Shown piece after piece: positions 1,574 to 11,719 of a stretch of DNA of 64,000 bases (position 1 is its first letter; each line of letters begins with the position of its first letter). The notes beneath the pieces were generated by a model. That model was not told the DNA's origin. It ran no database searches and was given only the letters and a program-made list of their open reading frames with translations. Position numbers and translations under genes: made by a program. The stretch comes from Salinispira pacifica (GTDB lineage Bacteria; Spirochaetota; Spirochaetia; DSM-27196; Salinispiraceae), in the NCBI RefSeq assembly GCF_000507245.1, contig NC_023035.1, positions 124,001-188,000 on the forward strand, given 5' to 3'.

Positions 1574-3832
1574 TCAGTTCACAGGAATGAGCAGCATTGA
1601 ACGGATGAGGGCCCGATTGACCTCCCCGTCCATGTTCCGGTTCTCCGGCAGATAGCGGAGCTGAAATGTATGGCTTCCCTGTTCAAGATTCATGAAGAGT
1701 CCTGAAGAGAGGCCGAAATCATCCCATTTTCGTTCGCCCCTCTGGGGCAGAATAATCGCTCCCTGCCGCTGTTCATCGGCAAACAGGGTACGGATTGCGG
1801 TTTTGTTATTGGTATTGATGGGACCTGATCCGTTTGCATATTCAAAAACGATGTAGAACCGGCCGTCCTCTTCTACATCTGTGCTGAACTCAAGAATCTG
1901 TTCGGGATCAGGAACAATCTCCACCGCTTCGTCGCCGGCGGGTGTTCTCAAAACCGAATCCGGATCGTAGGTCCAGCGGCTGAGATTGGAATGGAGTGTA
2001 CGGTTTTCCCCTTCCCTGGTGGAAAGGACGCTCCAGATATCGCCCCTGCCCTGCCTTCCGGGCCCGGCTTCACCCATGGGTGAACGTTCCCGGCCGTTCC
2101 ACAGGAAGCTTCGGGCATCAGACTGCAGGCTCCGGTAACTGAAATTACTTCCGGTATCCTGAATAAGCGGATCCTTGGGGGCTTCAATATCCGAGGCGAT
2201 GAGGTTAATGCTCCCCGAATCTCCGGATTGCTCAAGAACAATATCAATCTGGACAGGGCCCTGCCTCCACTGAAGAATGTTACGGGGGTCAGCAGGCTCA
2301 CCGTCGATTTGCATTGATGCGATCCGGGAACCTGTGCCCCTGACAGTCATATTCAATTCCATGCCTCTGAGCGTAAAACCGCTGAGGGTCACAGGCCCGC
2401 CTCCTAGGTTCTCAGGAAGCATAGGAGCAAAAGTCACCCCGTCACGCTGTACGTTGATGCCGAACAGCCCCCGGTACACCATGCCAAGATATCCGGCAAC
2501 AGACCAGAGCTGACGTTCTGAGTTGATCTCGGTACCGCTGTAATGGCCGTTGTCGTACACCATATTCTCCATGTGACTGAGGAAGAGGGCTGCGGACCGG
2601 GTCATGGCTTCCAGACTGTGGCTGAAGGCTGCCAAGTTGCCTTCCCGCACACCTGCGATGCCGTAGTAGGCTTCAACAAACGGCCAGATCCCCTTGTTGT
2701 GATAGGGAGGAATCCCGGGCTGCTGGGGCTCGATTGTGGGAATCCCGAAATGTACCACCGGAATTTCTGTGCTGAGACTGATCTCTCCGCCCAGAACCGC
2801 TGCCGGTGAATCCTGTTCTGCGGCCAGAATTGCAGCCAGAGAGTTGCTCAGGGTACCGGTTTTATCAACAGGCCGGCTGCCCTGAATCGGCGGATACAGG
2901 TAGAGGCTGTACAATCCGTTTTCCAGCCGGAATGCGTCGGCAATCAGGCGGTATTGCCTTTCGGCCATCCGGAAATACTCCATGCTCATTGGTGAGTCGC
3001 CTGCTTCGTCGTACATGTATGAGAGAATTTCCAGAGCCCGGGCATGCAGCAGGTTGGTGCTCATTGCCTTGCTTTCATAAATATCTTTGGGTTCCATCCA
3101 TTCAGGATATGTCTGCTCCCGCCAGTCCAGGAAGGAAGTTTCACCGAACAGAAGGCCGGTTTCCCGGTCCAGGGCGTTGAGCGTATCCCGCTGAATGCTG
3201 CGCTGGAGAATTTCCCGAGCATCATCCAGCCATTGAGCATCTCCCGTTGCCAGATACAGCTCCCAGGCTGCAATTGCCCACACAATTCTGTCGGTTGAGA
3301 TGGGCCAGGATCCTCCTGTACCGGTGTCCTGAATAATTTCTCCGTATTCGTTCACCTTGGCCATCAGACTGGTCAGGCTGTTTTCCGGGAGTACATAGGC
3401 AAGGGACAGCTGTATTGCATAGGATATGTCCCTGGTCCACACACCGTTCCATTTTTTCCCCGCCATGAAGCTTCCGTCGGAGCGGATATCCTGCAGGCTT
3501 TCTTCCAGAGCCATGTTGTACAGGGCTTCGTAAATGGGTGCTTCGGGACTGCTGAACTGCGGAAGAGAAGAGATATCCTCCTGGAGCAGCCAGGTTCTCT
3601 TCCTGGTTCCGTAGGTTGACTCGATCTTTTCGCTGCTGATTACCGTTGCGGTTTTCTCACCCTGGACCACTCTGTCCGGGTAGATTTCAAACTCTTCGTT
3701 CACCGGATACTCCCGTTCGAAACGTTCAACCCTGGGCGCCGGCGGCGGCGGAGGCGGGCTTGAACAGGCGGTGATAAAAACCGCCGCCAGTAATACAAAT
3801 CCCCAAATCATGATGCTGGCAGTGCGCTGCAT
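1574..3832 (-). CDS. Six-hairpin glycosidase lipoprotein (amylo-alpha-1,6-glucosidase-like)
   Basis: A 752-residue lipoprotein. Residues 1-23 form a lipoprotein signal with lipobox ITAC, followed by a run of prolines that probably acts as a spacer. Residues of roughly 90-500 look like an (alpha/alpha)6 barrel of the glycogen-debranching/trehalase/GH63 type, with a WTRDISYA motif near residue 130 and a conserved barrel end followed by a small beta domain. The last 200 residues look like an added beta-rich, possibly carbohydrate-binding, module. The exact substrate is not readable; an alpha-glucan is inferred from the neighbours. It follows a LacI-type regulator by 55 bases and has a good AAGGAG ribosome site, so the two form an operon. 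Confidence 0.75.
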   Translation of the reverse strand: MQRTASIMIWGFVLLAAVFITACSSPPPPPPAPRVERFEREYPVNEEFEIYPDRVVQGEKTATVISSEKIESTYGTRKRTWLLQEDISSLPQFSSPEAPIYEALYNMALEESLQDIRSDGSFMAGKKWNGVWTRDISYAIQLSLAYVLPENSLTSLMAKVNEYGEIIQDTGTGGSWPISTDRIVWAIAAWELYLATGDAQWLDDAREILQRSIQRDTLNALDRETGLLFGETSFLDWREQTYPEWMEPKDIYESKAMSTNLLHARALEILSYMYDEAGDSPMSMEYFRMAERQYRLIADAFRLENGLYSLYLYPPIQGSRPVDKTGTLSNSLAAILAAEQDSPAAVLGGEISLSTEIPVVHFGIPTIEPQQPGIPPYHNKGIWPFVEAYYGIAGVREGNLAAFSHSLEAMTRSAALFLSHMENMVYDNGHYSGTEINSERQLWSVAGYLGMVYRGLFGINVQRDGVTFAPMLPENLGGGPVTLSGFTLRGMELNMTVRGTGSRIASMQIDGEPADPRNILQWRQGPVQIDIVLEQSGDSGSINLIASDIEAPKDPLIQDTGSNFSYRSLQSDARSFLWNGRERSPMGEAGPGRQGRGDIWSVLSTREGENRTLHSNLSRWTYDPDSVLRTPAGDEAVEIVPDPEQILEFSTDVEEDGRFYIVFEYANGSGPINTNNKTAIRTLFADEQRQGAIILPQRGERKWDDFGLSSGLFMNLEQGSHTFQLRYLPENRNMDGEVNRALIRSMLLIPVN

Positions 3833-3887: not shown

Positions 3888-4877
3888 TTACTTCATACTG
3901 CGGTTTCTCAGATGCTCCAGGGCCAAAGGGCCACGAACAGATATGCCGGGTTTGAGGATGATCTCCTGCTCCCCCAGAAGAACGGTATCATTGATTAATC
4001 GGTACAGCAGCCGGGCTGCCTCATATCCGATCTCATCTTTGGGCTGATGAATGGTGGTGAGACCCAGGAAGCCGGTAAAATCCAGATCGTCATAGCCGAT
4101 AATTTCCAGATCCTTTTCCCAGCGGGCTACCGCCGGAAGAGATTCCAGGGCGTGGCTGTCGGAGAAAAAGAATATGCTGTCGATCTCGGGATGCTCCTTC
4201 AGCAATTCTTCCACTGCGGTATCGCTTTCAAACTGGTTGGGAACCAGTTTTTTCCCCACAACGGATATATCCGATTCTTCCAGCCGGCGCTGAAACCCGT
4301 TGAAGCGGTCAATCTGCTGCTGGGGGTTGCCCACGTCACCTACATATGCAGGGTACTTCAAGCCTTTGGATAGTATATGTTCCGCAGCCAGTTTTCCTCC
4401 GTAGCGGTTATCAACATACACCGACGGCCTGTGAGGCTTATGGTAGTCCAGGTAACAGTAGAGCAGCTTTTCATGATTCAGCATCTGCTCCTCTTCCCTG
4501 CTGAGATCATGGCTCATCACAAAGAGACCGATAATGTCTTCCTGAAGGATGTGACTCATCGCCTGTTCAGGGTGTTTGCCCCGGTTGAAGAGGATGAGGT
4601 TCATATCCATCTCTTCAACAAAGCGATAGATGCCCCGGAGTATGTAAAAATAAAATGGATGAATAAACAGGGGCATGAGAACGCCGAAGAAGCCGGAGCC
4701 CCTGTTTCCGGAAACCAGTTTTCGAGCTATCTTATTGGGGCGGTAATCCAGTTCCTTAATTGCCGCATGCACCCGGTCCCTGGTTTCGTCGCTCACAGGT
4801 CCGGTGCCGTTTACGACCCGGGATACGGTACCCAGACCGACTCCCGCTCGCTTGGCAATATCCTTCATCGTACTCAT
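3888..4877 (-). CDS. LacI/GalR-family transcriptional regulator
   Basis: The protein has 329 residues from the chosen start. Residues 1-50 form the classic LacI helix-turn-helix and hinge (MKDIAKRAGVGLGTVSRVVN, then YRPNKIARKL). The rest is a periplasmic-binding-protein-like sensor domain ending in the usual GYEAARLLYRLI segment. I chose the third Met (MSTMKD) because GAGG sits six bases upstream. It should bind as a dimer to palindromes such as the perfect 16-bp site that overlaps its own promoter, so it is probably autoregulated. The gene downstream encodes a glycosidase lipoprotein, so a sugar or oligosaccharide is the likely inducer. Confidence 0.93.
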   Translation of the reverse strand: MSTMKDIAKRAGVGLGTVSRVVNGTGPVSDETRDRVHAAIKELDYRPNKIARKLVSGNRGSGFFGVLMPLFIHPFYFYILRGIYRFVEEMDMNLILFNRGKHPEQAMSHILQEDIIGLFVMSHDLSREEEQMLNHEKLLYCYLDYHKPHRPSVYVDNRYGGKLAAEHILSKGLKYPAYVGDVGNPQQQIDRFNGFQRRLEESDISVVGKKLVPNQFESDTAVEELLKEHPEIDSIFFFSDSHALESLPAVARWEKDLEIIGYDDLDFTGFLGLTTIHQPKDEIGYEAARLLYRLINDTVLLGEQEIILKPGISVRGPLALEHLRNRSMK

Positions 4878-4890
4878 GATCATCCTCGGA

Positions 4891-4907: not shown

Positions 4908-4936
4908 ATTATATTACACAATACTGTCAAAGACAA
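4908..4936 (-). promoter_or_regulatory. Promoter of the lacI-type regulator operon
   Basis: On the minus strand the -35 element TTGTCT (4931-4936) is separated by exactly 17 bases from a consensus -10 element TATAAT (4908-4913). The start site would fall near 4901, inside the operator palindrome. The -35 and spacer lie in the 3' end of the prepilin peptidase gene, so the regulator can be transcribed independently of it. Confidence 0.75.
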
Positions 4937-5408
4937 TACTGGAAATCATCCAATCGGCATGCACCCACAGCGGCATGAGCAAAAACCCCGCCAGCAGATA
5001 GGGCCCCACGGGAGCAGCAAAACCCCTGAGAGATTTCCATCGTCGGCGTCCGCCATATTTCAGTGAACAGAATACTCCATGAATCAGAAAAAGGCTGCAG
5101 CATCCCAGTACTCCCCTGTACCAGGTCGCAGCCGGTACAGACAGAGCCAAAGCGGTCAGGAGTTTCCCGTCCCCCCAGCCGAAACTTCCCGGGAAAACCC
5201 GGGCCGATGCGGCGGTGAACCACACAATCGCCCCGGCCAGCACAATGCTCTGAAGCATATCACCCGGGGTTCTGTGTACAGCGTACAGCAATCCGGGAAA
5301 AAAGAACAGAAGGGTGCCTGTATCGGGAATAATCTGTTCCCTCACATCCCGGGCGGCGCAGACTTCCAGAAGAAGAATGACAAAACCAAATCCCGCTGTA
5401 TTTTCCAT
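4914..5408 (-). CDS. Small A24-type prepilin peptidase (CpaA/TadV-like)
   Basis: A polytopic membrane protein of 164 residues. Two aspartates expected for type IV prepilin peptidases are present: D21 in the segment RDVREQIIPD and D80 in GWGDGK, the GxGD motif. The N-terminal methylase domain of PilD is missing, so its size fits the CpaA/TadV subgroup that cleaves Flp/Tad pilins. No pilin or Tad gene is seen nearby, so the substrate is unknown. The ribosome site is weak, which leaves some doubt about the start. It lies upstream of the LacI-type gene in the same direction, but that gene has its own promoter. Confidence 0.8.
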   Translation of the reverse strand: MENTAGFGFVILLLEVCAARDVREQIIPDTGTLLFFFPGLLYAVHRTPGDMLQSIVLAGAIVWFTAASARVFPGSFGWGDGKLLTALALSVPAATWYRGVLGCCSLFLIHGVFCSLKYGGRRRWKSLRGFAAPVGPYLLAGFLLMPLWVHADWMISSIVFDSIV

Positions 5409-5577: not shown

Positions 5578-7431
5578 TTAAGCCTTCAAATTGGGGATTA
5601 TCCGGCTTTCCAGCCCCTGAAGCGAAGTGGTAAATATATCCGATTCCCTTACCCCGGGGGGCAGAGAATCTATGGGGATGGATATATCCTGCTTTTCAGA
5701 GCTTCGATTAATAAGCCCCAGCGCACACGTGTCCATAGTATAACGTGCAATAACCAGGATGTGTATATCTGAGTGGAGAATTTTGAAAATTCCATGTTTC
5801 AGTGCATCGCTGGAACGCCTGAGCGCAATAAGATCACGGTAAAAAGAGAGGGTCCCGGTATCCCAGCTTTCACGGTCCCAGTTCATGGGGTATCGGGCGC
5901 CTTCGTGGGAGTTTACATGTCCCTGAAGGCCGATCTCGTCACCGTAGTAAATTACCGGTGCGCCGGGGAGCATGAACTGAAGGGTTACCGCCGCACGGAT
6001 ATTCGCCGGACTGTTATGGTTATCGTTGGTGTGCAGCCGGCTGATATCGTGACTGTCCAGAAGGTTGAACTGGCTTTCGCGGAACTGACCGGGAACCGCC
6101 CGGTGTGCTTCTGTGAGTATATCGGCAAGCTGCCGGTTACCTGTGGGCCGGCATCGTTCGGGTGGATATTCCTCTTTGCTCAGATACCGGTCCCGTTCGC
6201 CCAGCCAGGCTCTCACCGGCCGTGATACCCCGAAATAGTTCATGCTTCCGTCCCACTGGTCCCCCTTCAGCCACGGGGAAGGATCATCCCAATGCTCCGC
6301 CAGAATATAGGCCTGGGGATTTTCCTCTTTGATCGCTTTCCGGGTTTCCCTCCAGATTTCGTCGGCAAAATCGTGATGGCGGTTTTTTCCTGTCTGGGCC
6401 GCCACATCGAAGCGCCAGCCGTCGATGGAGTAGGGGGGGCGGAGGAATTTTCTCAATACCGAATCTTTGCCTGCCCAGATCTGATTTCGGAGCTTTTCGC
6501 TTGAGTAATTCAGCTGGGGCAGCGTGGGAACGTCATACCATGCAAGATAGGAGCCGTCAGAATCGAAGTAATAATACTCGGCAGATTCAGGAACATCCTT
6601 TTCCGATGCACCGGATTCAAGGGCTTTCCTGGCTTCGGTGAACCAGGGGTGCCCGCTCCCGGTGTGATTTATGGAGATATCCAGTACCAGACGGATTCCC
6701 GCTTCATGAAGATCCCTGCTCAGATCCTCCAGAGCCTTGTCTCCCCCCAAATGCGGATCCACATGGAAAAAATCGACCGCATCGTATTTGTGGTGGGTGC
6801 GGGAGTGAAATATCGGGTTCAGATAGAGAGCTGTGATTCCCAGTTCCTGAAAGTAGGGAATGGACTGCCTGATCCCTTCCAGATCGCCGTTATAAAAATC
6901 TATACAGCGGCCCTCGTCCCATTCCAGGGGGATGGAATCCCAAGCCACTTCCTGACTGGTTCCGCCGTCAAAGCTGTACTCCCCGTCCCGCACGCCCAGA
7001 TCGGGATTTCCGTTTTTAAAGCGGTCGGGAAAAATCTGATAAAACACCGAATCCCCCACCCACTCTGCGGGGCGGTAATCCATGAAGAGCTGGAAACTCC
7101 TGCCGTCGTCCGGCGGTGAGAGGCGCTGACCGTCCGCTGCAAAATACAGGTCCTGTTCCCCCAGCCGGAAGGCAAAGTGGAACCGCATGTGTTGTTCTGG
7201 GTAGCTGATGCTGCAGCTGTAGCGCTGCCAGCCCCGGGATGCATCTCCCCGGGGAATCATATCAACATTTTTCATGCTCCCCTGGATCATCATCTGAAGT
7301 TTGAATTCACTCACATCTTCTTTGGCAAATGCGGTGATTTCAAACTCCTCATGTCTGGCCGGATAAAACGGCGATACGAAACCCCGGTGGGTATCGAAAA
7401 TGACTTTGGGTGAAACGTGTTCAGTGCTCAT
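5578..7431 (-). CDS. malZ: GH13 maltodextrin glucosidase / neopullulanase-like enzyme
   Basis: A cytoplasmic enzyme of 617 residues, close in length to E. coli MalZ (605). An N-terminal beta domain of the CBM34 type (about 1-115) precedes the GH13 barrel, which opens with GDSVFYQIFPDRF. The catalytic set is visible: nucleophile D342 in GWRFD, acid/base E379 in ILAEHW and the third Asp D462 in LLDSHD. There is no signal peptide. It should cut short maltodextrins to glucose or maltose. Its ATG overlaps the end of the TrmB-type gene by 11 bases and has an AGGAG site, so the two are translationally coupled. Cyclomaltodextrinase or neopullulanase activity cannot be excluded, so the symbol is tentative. 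Confidence 0.88.
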   Translation of the reverse strand: MSTEHVSPKVIFDTHRGFVSPFYPARHEEFEITAFAKEDVSEFKLQMMIQGSMKNVDMIPRGDASRGWQRYSCSISYPEQHMRFHFAFRLGEQDLYFAADGQRLSPPDDGRSFQLFMDYRPAEWVGDSVFYQIFPDRFKNGNPDLGVRDGEYSFDGGTSQEVAWDSIPLEWDEGRCIDFYNGDLEGIRQSIPYFQELGITALYLNPIFHSRTHHKYDAVDFFHVDPHLGGDKALEDLSRDLHEAGIRLVLDISINHTGSGHPWFTEARKALESGASEKDVPESAEYYYFDSDGSYLAWYDVPTLPQLNYSSEKLRNQIWAGKDSVLRKFLRPPYSIDGWRFDVAAQTGKNRHHDFADEIWRETRKAIKEENPQAYILAEHWDDPSPWLKGDQWDGSMNYFGVSRPVRAWLGERDRYLSKEEYPPERCRPTGNRQLADILTEAHRAVPGQFRESQFNLLDSHDISRLHTNDNHNSPANIRAAVTLQFMLPGAPVIYYGDEIGLQGHVNSHEGARYPMNWDRESWDTGTLSFYRDLIALRRSSDALKHGIFKILHSDIHILVIARYTMDTCALGLINRSSEKQDISIPIDSLPPGVRESDIFTTSLQGLESRIIPNLKA

Positions 7432-8254
7432 TTGGTTGGCTCCTGATATTTTGATTTGTATTTTCGGATTGTGACTCCATGATGGAGTTCACCAGTAATT
7501 TTTCGGGTATGTTGTCCAGACCGTAGGAACGCCTGAGGCCCAGCAGATAAATATCCAGATGGATATGCTCAGCAATCACCGAGGTGAGCAGGGGATTCTG
7601 ACTGAAGGTGGCAGTGAAATCCCCCTGGGATCGTCCTCCAAGGAGACAGCGCTCCATGTCTGAGGTGAGCATAAGACGGGAGCTGCCGTCGCAGTAGCTG
7701 TGTCCGGGCTCGGGGTTCCGGGCAGCATTGAAAAAACGGATTGGAAGATCCCCCGGATCCTGGGGATAAAAAGAGAACATGGTGACCTGTACGCCTCTGG
7801 CGCAGGCCTCCCGCAGTTCGGGATTGAATTCCGCCACGGGGATATCCGTATTAATAAGGATTTCCGTTCCGGTGCGGGAAATGATGGAGCGGGCCTTCCT
7901 GAGCACCTGGGGGGTGCCCCGGATATTGAAGAACTGTTCGCTGTCCGCATCGCCGGTGAGCGATTCCAGTTCCATGCTCAGTCTGTCTGCGGTACCGGTG
8001 TACCGGTCCTTCAGTTCGCCGATGAACTCCTTGGGGCTTTTCGCCGTGTACTCCCGGCTTTCACCGGGAATGAGGTACACTGCACCCTGTTTATACAGTG
8101 ACTGAAGGACATTATAGACGCCCGAGCGGCTGATGCCCAGATCCTTGGCTATCTGATAGCCGGTCATCTGACCGCCCCTGAGCAGACTGAGGTACACCTG
8201 TGCTTCGGTCCGGCTCAACCCGAGAATTTCAAGCTGTTCATATAGCTGGGTCAT
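7421..8254 (-). CDS. TrmB-family sugar-sensing transcriptional regulator
   Basis: The product has 277 residues. Residues 1-80 form the winged-helix TrmB domain (EQLEILGLSRTEAQVYLSLL, then GYQIAKDLGISRSGVYNVL). The remaining part is the phospholipase-D-like or sugar-binding C-terminal half common in TrmB-like proteins. I chose MTQLYEQ as start because GGAGAGG lies just upstream; a longer reading frame runs on through the divergent promoter region and is not credible. The gene is directly followed by the MalZ-like gene. A 33-bp palindrome sits 16 bases before the start, so the protein probably controls itself, malZ and the divergent aldo/keto reductase in response to a maltodextrin. Confidence 0.88.
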   Translation of the reverse strand: MTQLYEQLEILGLSRTEAQVYLSLLRGGQMTGYQIAKDLGISRSGVYNVLQSLYKQGAVYLIPGESREYTAKSPKEFIGELKDRYTGTADRLSMELESLTGDADSEQFFNIRGTPQVLRKARSIISRTGTEILINTDIPVAEFNPELREACARGVQVTMFSFYPQDPGDLPIRFFNAARNPEPGHSYCDGSSRLMLTSDMERCLLGGRSQGDFTATFSQNPLLTSVIAEHIHLDIYLLGLRRSYGLDNIPEKLLVNSIMESQSENTNQNIRSQPNEH

Positions 8255-8269
8255 GGTTCCTCTCCGTAG

Positions 8270-8302
8270 TTGAATAGTAGTACATAATGTACTACTATTC
8301 AA
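8270..8302. promoter_or_regulatory. 33-bp operator palindrome with overlapping divergent promoters
   Basis: Two 16-base arms, TTGAATAGTAGTACAT and its exact reverse complement, flank a single central A. Read on either strand, the palindrome contains TTGAAT, 17 bases, then TACTAT, which is a fair sigma-70 promoter. The plus-strand start would fall about 50 bases before the aldo/keto reductase ATG and the minus-strand start about 13 bases before the TrmB-type ATG. The palindrome is seen directly; binding by the TrmB-type protein is inferred. Confidence 0.85.
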
Positions 8303-8356
8303 TAGACGGGATGTACCACTACAAAAAGTGTCAGTTGAAAAATAAAGGAGACAGGT

Positions 8357-9340
8357 ATGAAAATGAAAAAGCCCGGACGTTTCGGTGAGGAAATCAGTGC
8401 AATAGGATTCGGTTCCTGGGGGATCAGCGGTGCCTGGGGGGAAATGGATGAGCAGGCATATATCCGCACCATCCACGCCGCTATAGATAACGGAATCAGC
8501 TTTTTCGATACCGCTCCCATTTACGGAATGGGAGTATCCGAGGAAATTCTGGGTAAGGCCATAGAAGGCCGCCGGGACAGGCTGTTCATCGCCAGCAAAT
8601 GCGGACTGGTATGGAACAATAAAAAGCGGGTCCGGAAGGATCTTTCTCCCGCAAGTCTCAGGAAAGAGATCGATCAATCACTGGAAAGACTGAGAACCGA
8701 TCATCTGGATCTCTGGCAAATTCACTGGCCCGATGAAAACTCCGACCACGATGCGGCCTTTGAGGCTCTGGCTGAAATCCGGGACAGCGGCAAGGTGCGG
8801 TTCCTGGGGCTCAGCAATTTTTCCGCCGCCGATCTTGAACGGGCTCACAAGATGGTCGGCATAGACTCCTACCAGGGACTGTTCAATATGTTTGAACAGA
8901 ATGCGGAAAAATATCACAGCATAGACCTTGATTACCGGGTGAAGAAAGAAATACTTCCCATTCTCCGCAGGGAAGGGATGGCTCTCCTTCCCTACAGCCC
9001 TCTCATGCAGGGAATGCTGGCAGGAGGTATCAGCCGGGATACATCCTTTGCCAAGGGGGATGTACGGGCTCATAACGGGAAGCTTTCAGCGGAAAACCGG
9101 GGAAAGTATCTGGAAATTCTGGAAAAACTGAAGCCCGTGGCCGGAGATCATAATCTGAGCCTGGCGCAGCTTGCCCTGGTGTGGACTCTGAATGTTGATG
9201 CCGTGGGATCGGTGATAGCAGGAGCACGGTCGGAGAAGCATGTGCTTTCCAATGCCCAGGCTGGGGAAGTATCGGGGCAGGAAGAGATTGTGAGAGAAGT
9301 TGAATCTGTACTTTCAGAATACCGGGGGCTGATTGAATAA
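8357..9340 (+). CDS. Aldo/keto reductase
   Basis: A soluble NADPH-dependent oxidoreductase of 327 residues, a normal length for the family. The catalytic tetrad is visible: D51 and Y56 in DTAPIYG, K81 in ASKCG and H123 in QIHWPD. The C-terminal segment GSVIAGARSEKH is the usual phosphate-binding loop for the cofactor. It resembles the YajO/general stress AKR subgroup that reduces aldehydes or sugars. AAAGGAG lies seven bases upstream of the start. It is divergent from the trmB-malZ pair and shares their palindromic control region, so it may act on a sugar linked to maltodextrin use. The substrate is unknown. Confidence 0.92.
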   Translation: MKMKKPGRFGEEISAIGFGSWGISGAWGEMDEQAYIRTIHAAIDNGISFFDTAPIYGMGVSEEILGKAIEGRRDRLFIASKCGLVWNNKKRVRKDLSPASLRKEIDQSLERLRTDHLDLWQIHWPDENSDHDAAFEALAEIRDSGKVRFLGLSNFSAADLERAHKMVGIDSYQGLFNMFEQNAEKYHSIDLDYRVKKEILPILRREGMALLPYSPLMQGMLAGGISRDTSFAKGDVRAHNGKLSAENRGKYLEILEKLKPVAGDHNLSLAQLALVWTLNVDAVGSVIAGARSEKHVLSNAQAGEVSGQEEIVREVESVLSEYRGLIE

Positions 9341-9570: not shown

Positions 9571-11719
9571 GTATGCCCAGCGAAGCGCAGGCATACCCGA
9601 CCGGTTGGAAGATACCGGTGTCGCCTCGTTCAGGAGGAAGACAATCCGAATTGCAAGGGCGCAGCTGGCAACGGTTGGGTCTGAAGGAAGCAATAGGAAG
9701 TGAACAGCACATAGCGAAAGCGAACCTGATACGGCACAACAGGGGTGGTAAGCGTGCAAAATAGCGCGAAGCCCGAAACCTGAACAGACCTGTAGTGTGT
9801 TTGAGGATGGCGTTGTTTACAGGGACTGCGCACAGTATCTGGGGAAACCTGTTGAAATCCCAGCAAAGGGTAGGGAACGACAAGCAGAAATGCAAGTCAG
9901 ATCGAAGTTTCAGCAGGTGGCAGATGAGTCCGTAGTAGTGAGTAAGTTCCGGCCAGTGAAAGCCAGTAATGGTGTGGAGGAGAAAACCGGAATGACCTCG
10001 TCCCCGGTGACGAGGACTGCATTCAGGCCAAAAGCCGGATGCGGATGCGAAGGGACGAAGTTTTTTAGTAAATCTTGTTTCGATGAAAAGGCTGGTCGGC
10101 AGCTACGCTGCCTGCTCGCCTATGCAACCGAAGGAGCGTGAAGCCTAAACAGAAAGTTGCTGGAAAGTGAGCAGAGTATGTGGCCACGGCCGACTGGGGA
10201 ACCAGGAAGCTGAGCCAGAATACCGTTGACCTGAGTATCTTTTTGACCAGCTGAATATTGCCGGAAAATGGCTAAGAGACAGCTGCAGAGGAGAGAATGA
10301 GCAGGAGTTTCACCGCCGAGGTTTCAAACGAAAGAAGATGCAGACACAAGGAAATCGTAAAATCTGGTACAGCCTCTACGGCAGGATGCTCGAGAGACCA
10401 CGGCTGGAGGCCGCTTTCAGGAAGGTGAAGGCAGCGAACGGAGCCCCCGGAGTAGACGGAGTGAGCGTCAAAGCCTTTGCCGACCGTCTGGCGGAGCAAC
10501 TCGATGTACTTGTGAAGGAATTGAAGGACAAGAGCTACCGACCGCTTCCAGTCTTGAGGGTGGAAATACCCAAAGACGGGGGAGGAGTAAGGAAACTCGG
10601 GATACCTTCGGTTCGCGACCGGGTAGTCCAGCAAGCCTTACTGGACATTCTAAACCCAATATTTGACCCGGACTTTCATCCGTCCAGTTACGGATACCGA
10701 CCGGGCAGAAGCGCACATCAGGCAATTGATAAGGCATCTACGTTCATGCGCAGGTATGAATTGGAATGGGTAGTGGATATGGACTTGTCGAAGTGTTTTG
10801 ACACACTGAAGCATGACTTTTTACTGACTCAAGTACGAAAACGAGTTGCCGATGGAAGCATCTTGAATCTCATACGCCTCTTTCTTGAAAGTGGTGTGAT
10901 GACGGATGCTGGTGAAGAGAACACTGAAGAAGGGAGTCCCCAGGGCGGGGTGATTAGTCCGCTTCTCGCGAACATCTACCTCGACTTCTTTGACCAGTGG
11001 AGCATGGCACGAGGGTATCGCATAGTTCGCTATGCCGACGATATCCTCATCTTTGCTTCATCACAAAAAGGTGCGGAACGTCGGCTTGCAGCTGCAACGC
11101 ATTTTCTGGAAGAAGAAATGGGACTGGCTGTGAATCGTGAGAAAACTCACATTACAAACCTGTATGAGGGGGTGCGCTACCTTGGAGTAGTAATCTCTCG
11201 TCACCACACCCGGATTCAGGAAAAGAAGGTGAAAGCCTTCAAGGACAAGGTCAGGAAACTGACCCGACGCAACAGCGGGAGACCGCTGGGATCGACAATT
11301 TACGAACTCAATCCAGTACTACGCGGGTTTGCTAACTATTTCAGGATAGCAAATTGTACGAAGGTATTCAGGGAGCTGATGAGCTGGGTACGCAGGCGAT
11401 TGCGGGCTATTCAGTTGCGACTTTGGAAACGCTCTTCCCGGCTGCACCGCCGATTGCGGCAGCTGGGATTTCAAGGCGAGTTCAAACACATCAAGATGAG
11501 TTCGTGGAGATCGGCTAAAAGTCCGCTTGCAGCCATGGCGCTGCAAAACAAGCACTTTGAAGAGATGAATCTGTTTTCTCTCGACAAGGTACAGGTCGCA
11601 ATTTCTGTCCGGCAGCTTGCTGGATAACTGAAGACAGGAGCCGTATACGAGGTCCGTACGTACGGTTCTGTGAGAGGGACAATAAAGGAGGTCATTCCTC
11701 CTTTATTGCCCTACTCGAT
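9571..11719 (+). mobile_element. Complete group II intron
   Basis: A self-splicing retroelement of about 2.15 kb. I place the 5' end at GTATGCCC (9571), which starts a hairpin typical of domain I and follows a terminator T-run. The 767 bases up to 10337 hold no gene and represent domains I to IV of the ribozyme. The maturase gene fills domain IV. Domain V is at 11639-11669 with the AGC triad and CG bulge, and domain VI ends in CTACTCGAT at 11719. The 3' exon starts ATATCTG, sharing TATCTG with the left-edge copy. Landing behind a terminator is typical of group IIC introns, but the AGC triad fits IIA/IIB better, so the class is open. Confidence 0.88.
10338..11627 (+). CDS. ltrA: Group II intron reverse transcriptase/maturase
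   Basis: The full intron-encoded protein has 429 residues. The RT domain spans roughly 15-290 with the fingers motif GAPGVDG (residues 36-42), SPQGG (200-204) and the active-site YADD (232-235). The maturase domain covers about 310-385. There is no HNH endonuclease after it, so mobility would rely on nicked, single-stranded or replication-fork DNA. No frameshift or stop is present, so the element is probably active. Start ATG at 10338 lies in domain IV without a clear ribosome site. The symbol follows general LtrA usage. It is encoded on the same strand as the left-edge copy. Confidence 0.95.
   Translation: MQTQGNRKIWYSLYGRMLERPRLEAAFRKVKAANGAPGVDGVSVKAFADRLAEQLDVLVKELKDKSYRPLPVLRVEIPKDGGGVRKLGIPSVRDRVVQQALLDILNPIFDPDFHPSSYGYRPGRSAHQAIDKASTFMRRYELEWVVDMDLSKCFDTLKHDFLLTQVRKRVADGSILNLIRLFLESGVMTDAGEENTEEGSPQGGVISPLLANIYLDFFDQWSMARGYRIVRYADDILIFASSQKGAERRLAAATHFLEEEMGLAVNREKTHITNLYEGVRYLGVVISRHHTRIQEKKVKAFKDKVRKLTRRNSGRPLGSTIYELNPVLRGFANYFRIANCTKVFRELMSWVRRRLRAIQLRLWKRSSRLHRRLRQLGFQGEFKHIKMSSWRSAKSPLAAMALQNKHFEEMNLFSLDKVQVAISVRQLAG

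Follow-up and report, generated by a model that had tools for sequence, protein, structure and literature searches.

A perfect palindrome upstream of trmB in Salinispira pacifica: a predicted TrmB-family operator, probably shared by two divergent promoters

In Salinispira pacifica, the trmB-malZ operon and a divergent aldo/keto reductase gene are separated by a region that carries a long palindrome. Which protein recognizes this palindrome, and does it control one of these transcription units or both? The sequence TTGAATAGTAGTACAT-A-ATGTACTACTATTCAA (positions 8270-8302 of the window, i.e., of the whole 64-kb stretch of DNA analyzed here; no strand) consists of two 16-nt arms, 100% complementary, around a single central base (8286). 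Its edges lie 15 bp from the start codon of trmB and 54 bp from that of the reductase gene. No perfect inverted repeat of the window with a spacer of up to 10 is longer. Arms did not exceed 9-12 nt in 20 first-order Markov simulations of 64 kb, and arms of at least 16 nt are expected 1.7e-4 times per window and 0.01 times per genome. The 33-bp palindrome reported by the sequence-only reading is therefore real and far above chance. It is also single-copy, being the sole match in the 3,782,798-bp genome with three mismatches allowed. The runner-up inverted repeat of the window has 12-nt arms and is present twice (710-738 and 11680-11708). This repeat (CAATAAAGGAGGTCATTCCTCCTTTATTG) is found directly after each of two near-identical reverse-transcriptase (group II intron-like) ORFs (34-738 and 10338-11708), which have the same orientation and bracket the cluster of glycoside hydrolase, LacI, malZ, trmB and reductase genes.

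The gene closest to the palindrome (7421-8254, minus strand) encodes a TrmB-family regulator of 277 aa, whose start codon agrees with that of aligned homologues. The regulator has the TrmB winged-helix DNA-binding domain (PF01978, residues 8-75, 67.1 bits for a cut-off of 25.6, E 1.2e-18). Its match to the effector-binding domain of archaeal TrmB (PF11495) is just above the threshold (22.4 bits for a cut-off of 22.2) and covers only positions 2-97 of the 233 of the profile (residues 108-208), and its match to the solved archaeal TrmB 3qph stops at residue 160. The trmB gene overlaps by 11 bp the gene of a GH13 enzyme of the maltodextrin glucosidase (MalZ) type (5578-7431, minus strand; PF00128), which scores 479 bits with NF008051 (maltodextrin glucosidase), under its cut-off of 568, and whose top PDB match is maltodextrin glucosidase (5bn7/7vt9). 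On the other side, the plus strand encodes an IolS/GSP69/YdjG-like aldo/keto reductase (8357-9340; PF00248, E 1.8e-72). Pullulan, starch, maltose and trehalose support the growth of S. pacifica L21-RPul-D2 (PMC4511686). A search of its genome for the MalF-type domain (PF16296) was negative and, therefore, no maltose ABC transporter can be named as a target. Downstream of malZ and on the same strand are found genes encoding a LacI-family regulator (3888-4883) and a lipoprotein-like glycoside hydrolase with a weak Bac_rhamnosid6H match (1574-3832); this LacI regulator may also control the cluster.

The regulator homologues were gathered from the class and from named genomes, the latter by an alignment-based search; a query of genome contigs with the single protein retrieved no homologue. 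An inverted repeat, GTWGT-N9-ACWAC, recurs upstream of these homologues in Spirochaetota, Bacillota and Fusobacteriota. All 5-mer inverted repeats with spacers from 0 to 14 were counted in the 150 bp preceding each of 86 homologues. In the resulting ranking, the GTTGT form took the top place and the GTAGT form came third, behind an element that is itself a fragment of this site. GTWGT-N9-ACWAC is present within 150 bp upstream of 32 of the 86 homologues and in none of 69 control windows. In S. pacifica, it occupies positions 8277-8295 within a conserved 23-bp core, TAGTAGTACATAATGTACTACTA (8275-8297, no strand). This core is identical, at every letter, in Clostridium ganghwense (L082), and near-identical cores were found in C. 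guangxiense, Oceanirhabdus, Treponema and further spirochaetes. Elsewhere, the site precedes the first gene of a trmB-containing operon or a likely target gene. No recognizable site was found at the G007 (L007/L055), L020/L021, Vibrio and Endozoicomonas homologues; the conservation of the site is thus wide but not universal.

At positions 3, 7 and 10, counted outward from the middle of the site, its two arms change in concert, which fits a site for a homodimer. Furthermore, the base at position 7 tracks residues 32-33 of the helix-turn-helix, Gly-Tyr going with A and Gly-Ser or Ala-Tyr with T in 44 of 45 cases (Fisher 8e-12, a value that is too strong because the relatives are not independent). 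The regulator of the window obeys this rule (GY at 32-33, A in the arm). On the tree, each of the two traits shows about five changes. Well-supported branches yielded only two independent pairs, of which one agrees and one shows no difference, too few for significance. Overall, the cross-phylum footprinting and the operator/protein covariation strongly support the proposal, already made from the sequence, that the palindrome serves as operator for the TrmB-type protein, the core at 8275-8297 being its predicted binding site.

An explanation by structure rather than by protein binding was also considered. The region 8255-8356 folds strongly as a single strand (-18.3 kcal/mol with DNA parameters, z -5.1), as expected if the palindrome were an RNA or DNA structure element such as a terminator, an attenuator or a repeat element. 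However, the core sequence is kept at trmB promoters across phyla while its centre and flanks vary, and the palindrome is single-copy and lies between divergent genes, which makes this explanation very improbable. The terminator reading was rejected since there is no T tract and no terminator call, and the repeat-element reading was rejected because of the single copy.

The TrmB operator thus appears as the best explanation of the core, and its reach in the genome seems limited. Searches with TAGTAGT-N9-ACTACTA, GTWGTACA-N3-TGTACWAC and TAGTACAT-N-ATGTACTA, with up to three mismatches, did not reveal any second convincing site in the S. pacifica genome (the reversed-pattern control of this search was poor, 616 versus 25, because its base composition differs). 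This suggests that TrmB is a local regulator, and local autoregulation is well supported. The genome encodes a second TrmB-family protein (1,102,277-1,102,969), whose gene is adjoined by twin TTTACTATTATAGTAGTAA sequences located upstream of a carbamate-kinase-like gene (L070, 6933-6951 and 7046-7065; G000:C1, ~1,100,932-1,101,064). Their half-site order is inverted, and they are probably the operators of this paralogue.

Which promoters does the operator control? Read on both strands, the palindrome contains TTGAAT-17-TACTAT, as the sequence-only reading had pointed out, since a palindrome shows any promoter on either strand. The candidate reductase promoter (8270-8298, plus strand) would have its -35 box at 8270-8275 and its -10 box at 8293-8298, with a start at ~8305. 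The candidate trmB-malZ promoter (8274-8302, minus strand) would have its -35 box at 8302-8297 and its -10 box at 8279-8274, with a start at ~8267; the predicted 5′ leader of trmB (~13 nt) would still hold GGAGAGG. Each candidate -35 box shares 2 bp with the -10 box of the opposite promoter. The predicted starts are ~38 bp apart, lie outside the palindrome, and their transcripts leave in opposite directions. The promoters would therefore overlap completely and be divergent, instead of face-to-face as initially described.

Promoters were scored with approximate E. coli hexamer frequencies. The palindrome promoter ranks first on the reductase side (8200-8356; 8.42, the next reaching 4.4) as well as on the trmB side (8255-8410; 8.42, the next reaching 7.11). 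However, both candidates match the consensus at only 8 of 12 positions, which is under the cut-off of a stricter scanner, and about 9% of the tiles of the window score as high. The relatives mostly have promoters of the TTGACA-17-TATAAT type (scores of 10-16). Most of these promoters are one-sided, with the operator on or downstream of the -10 box and generally centred near -7, +4 or +10. That of S. pacifica would be centred near -19, in the spacer between the hexamers, a placement that was found in none of the relatives scanned and that would allow one site to serve two mirror-image promoters. The proposal of two overlapping promoters thus stands in part: each outscores every other candidate in its direction, but their match to the consensus is limited and their placement is not seen in relatives.

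These observations leave room for an unlikely, though not negligible, alternative in which the TrmB operator controls only trmB-malZ, the reductase gene having its promoter elsewhere or being barely transcribed. The apparent reductase promoter would then be a by-product of symmetry, since a palindrome automatically displays any promoter on both strands. The one-sided layout of most relatives and the lack of linkage between the reductase and trmB in relatives are consistent with this alternative. However, no rival reductase promoter exceeds 4.4 in 8200-8356. Furthermore, the arms of the palindrome reach five bases each past the conserved core, exactly onto both -35 boxes; these flanks lie outside the conserved operator and yet are perfectly mirrored. 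This mirroring favours two promoters mildly: it is weak evidence because relatives devoid of a second promoter also show extended symmetry, with a slight excess at the same bases. A still less likely alternative is that the palindrome is a TrmB operator but that the real promoters use other hexamers, or that TrmB is an activator. For example, TTTGTA as -35 box and TTGAAT as weak -10 box would place the operator of trmB at +4, a class common in relatives. This arrangement scores 5.05 compared to 8.42 for TTGAAT/TACTAT, and nothing comparable is found on the reductase side. Taken as a whole, both genes probably have their promoters within the palindrome, and a single bound regulator would then shut the two of them down. 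The block of both units by a single dimer would hold only if both promoters are correct.

Other layouts were encountered during this survey. In L064, a 38-bp palindrome (5917-5954, TTCATAGTAGTAGTT...AACTACTACTATGAA) separates a TrmB-family gene from one encoding a P-type ATPase, and its centre contains a candidate -10 box for each of them. In L113 (~4920-4990, between uvrC and trmB), the operator is flanked by good, mirrored candidate promoters (16.45 toward trmB, 12.32 toward uvrC) that are truly face-to-face, with the operator at +4 for both. Shared operators may therefore have evolved repeatedly. In another TrmB subfamily (L026, L028, L030, L032 and L033), ACTAC-N4-GTAGT (ACTACTATGGTAGT) is found within ~30 bp around the trmB start, where it overlaps the start codon of trmB itself just 3′ of the -10 box. 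Other elements have the same half-sites as the window but separated by N10 instead of N9 (L065 at 9368 and 12934, L066 at 8449, L067 at 8249); the corresponding TrmB genes are near a diaminopimelate dehydrogenase gene, which in L065 is also preceded by a site.

The sequence-only reading also suggested, from the shared palindrome, that the reductase belongs to maltodextrin use, and proposed to search relatives for the same palindrome between these genes. The core recurs at trmB promoters of relatives. None of the relatives examined carries the reductase gene beside trmB or malZ, and no homologue of the reductase was found at 1e-85 in 392 other genomes of the phylum. Synteny therefore gives no support to this role; the shared site is its only hint, and we consider it a guess. 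Disposal of sugar-derived aldehydes by the reductase would be another guess.

We propose the following mechanism, to which we give a probability of about 0.6 as a whole. TrmB would bind the core as a symmetric dimer, the operator being located between the hexamers of two mirror-image sigma-70-type promoters, that of trmB-malZ and that of the aldo/keto reductase gene. Bound TrmB would cover the spacer and both -10 boxes and exclude RNA polymerase from both promoters, leading to autoregulation and to co-repression of the reductase. An inducer, probably a maltodextrin-type sugar, would free the operator, and polymerases of both orientations would then compete for the same 29 bp. The palindrome, the conserved operator, the regulator family and the gene layout are observed. 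Dimer binding and the two promoters are predicted from these features. Repression rather than activation is suggested by the position of the operator here and in relatives, where it overlaps the -10 box or the start. A sugar inducer is suggested by the adjacent malZ and by the sugar genes that the site precedes in relatives: GH13 genes (L102-104, of which L103 alone was scanned for the GH13 domain), a phosphorylase gene in Sebaldella (L106), an SBP-MalF transporter (L056) and a trmB-MATE-GH13-GH31 cluster in Treponema (L063). Other members of the family adjoin MATE, PfkB or nucleotidyltransferase genes and, therefore, the effector is not set by the family.

Control of two overlapping promoters by a single palindromic operator is a classical arrangement. 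In argECBH and in the E. coli bio locus (bioA/bioBFCD), a single operator governs two overlapping promoters of divergent transcription units; the repressors are ArgR for arg and BirA for bio, compared to TrmB here. The bio promoters are face-to-face (PMC3494674). As in these systems, the S. pacifica genes are divergent with one palindromic site between them. The best candidate promoters would both overlap this operator, at only 8/12 to the consensus. Unlike those of bio, they would be divergent, with -35 and -10 boxes mirrored around the operator centre instead of facing each other. Bidirectional promoters with shared or overlapping -10 elements are common, their starts being typically 10, 18 or 23 bp apart (Warman et al., PMC12825309). 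The present locus resembles them by symmetric DNA that would drive divergent transcription and by the predicted mutual exclusion of polymerases of opposite orientations, but its candidate -10 boxes (8293-8298 and 8279-8274) are separate and its predicted starts ~38 bp apart, compared to a shared -10 and ~10-23 bp.

Archaeal TrmB operators include TACT-N3-AGTA, TGM TATCAC-N5-GTGATA and TACT-N7-8-GAGTA (PMC4158304). They too are palindromic sites of a sugar regulator overlapping a promoter, and some are autoregulated, but their half-site order and spacing differ from GTAGT-N9-ACTAC, in which AGTA precedes TACT. The TrmB loci of Clostridium, Treponema and other spirochaetes have the same operator at the promoter of the operon of the regulator but differ by its position (near -7, +4 or +10 versus -19) and by their neighbour genes. 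The literature searched gave no description of a bacterial TrmB operator or operator family, which is weak evidence of novelty since most subscription journals and regulon databases lay outside this search. The bacterial TrmB site family and its spacer-centred version are apparently new. The odds are about even that the locus is a three-way exclusive switch, in which a TrmB dimer and polymerases of both orientations vie for the 33 bp of the palindrome. The outer bases of the operator would double as the -10 boxes of two exactly mirrored promoters and its flanks would supply their -35 boxes, and the site would belong to a cross-phylum family of bacterial TrmB operators undescribed in this literature. 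The TrmB family has so far been studied mostly in archaea, and GTWGT-N9-ACWAC, with residues 32-33 of the helix-turn-helix tracking the middle base of the arm, provides a testable DNA-binding code for its bacterial members. If both promoters are true, the locus would be a minimal natural divergent switch, whose operator and two promoters lie on shared bases, and would be useful for studies of polymerase competition.
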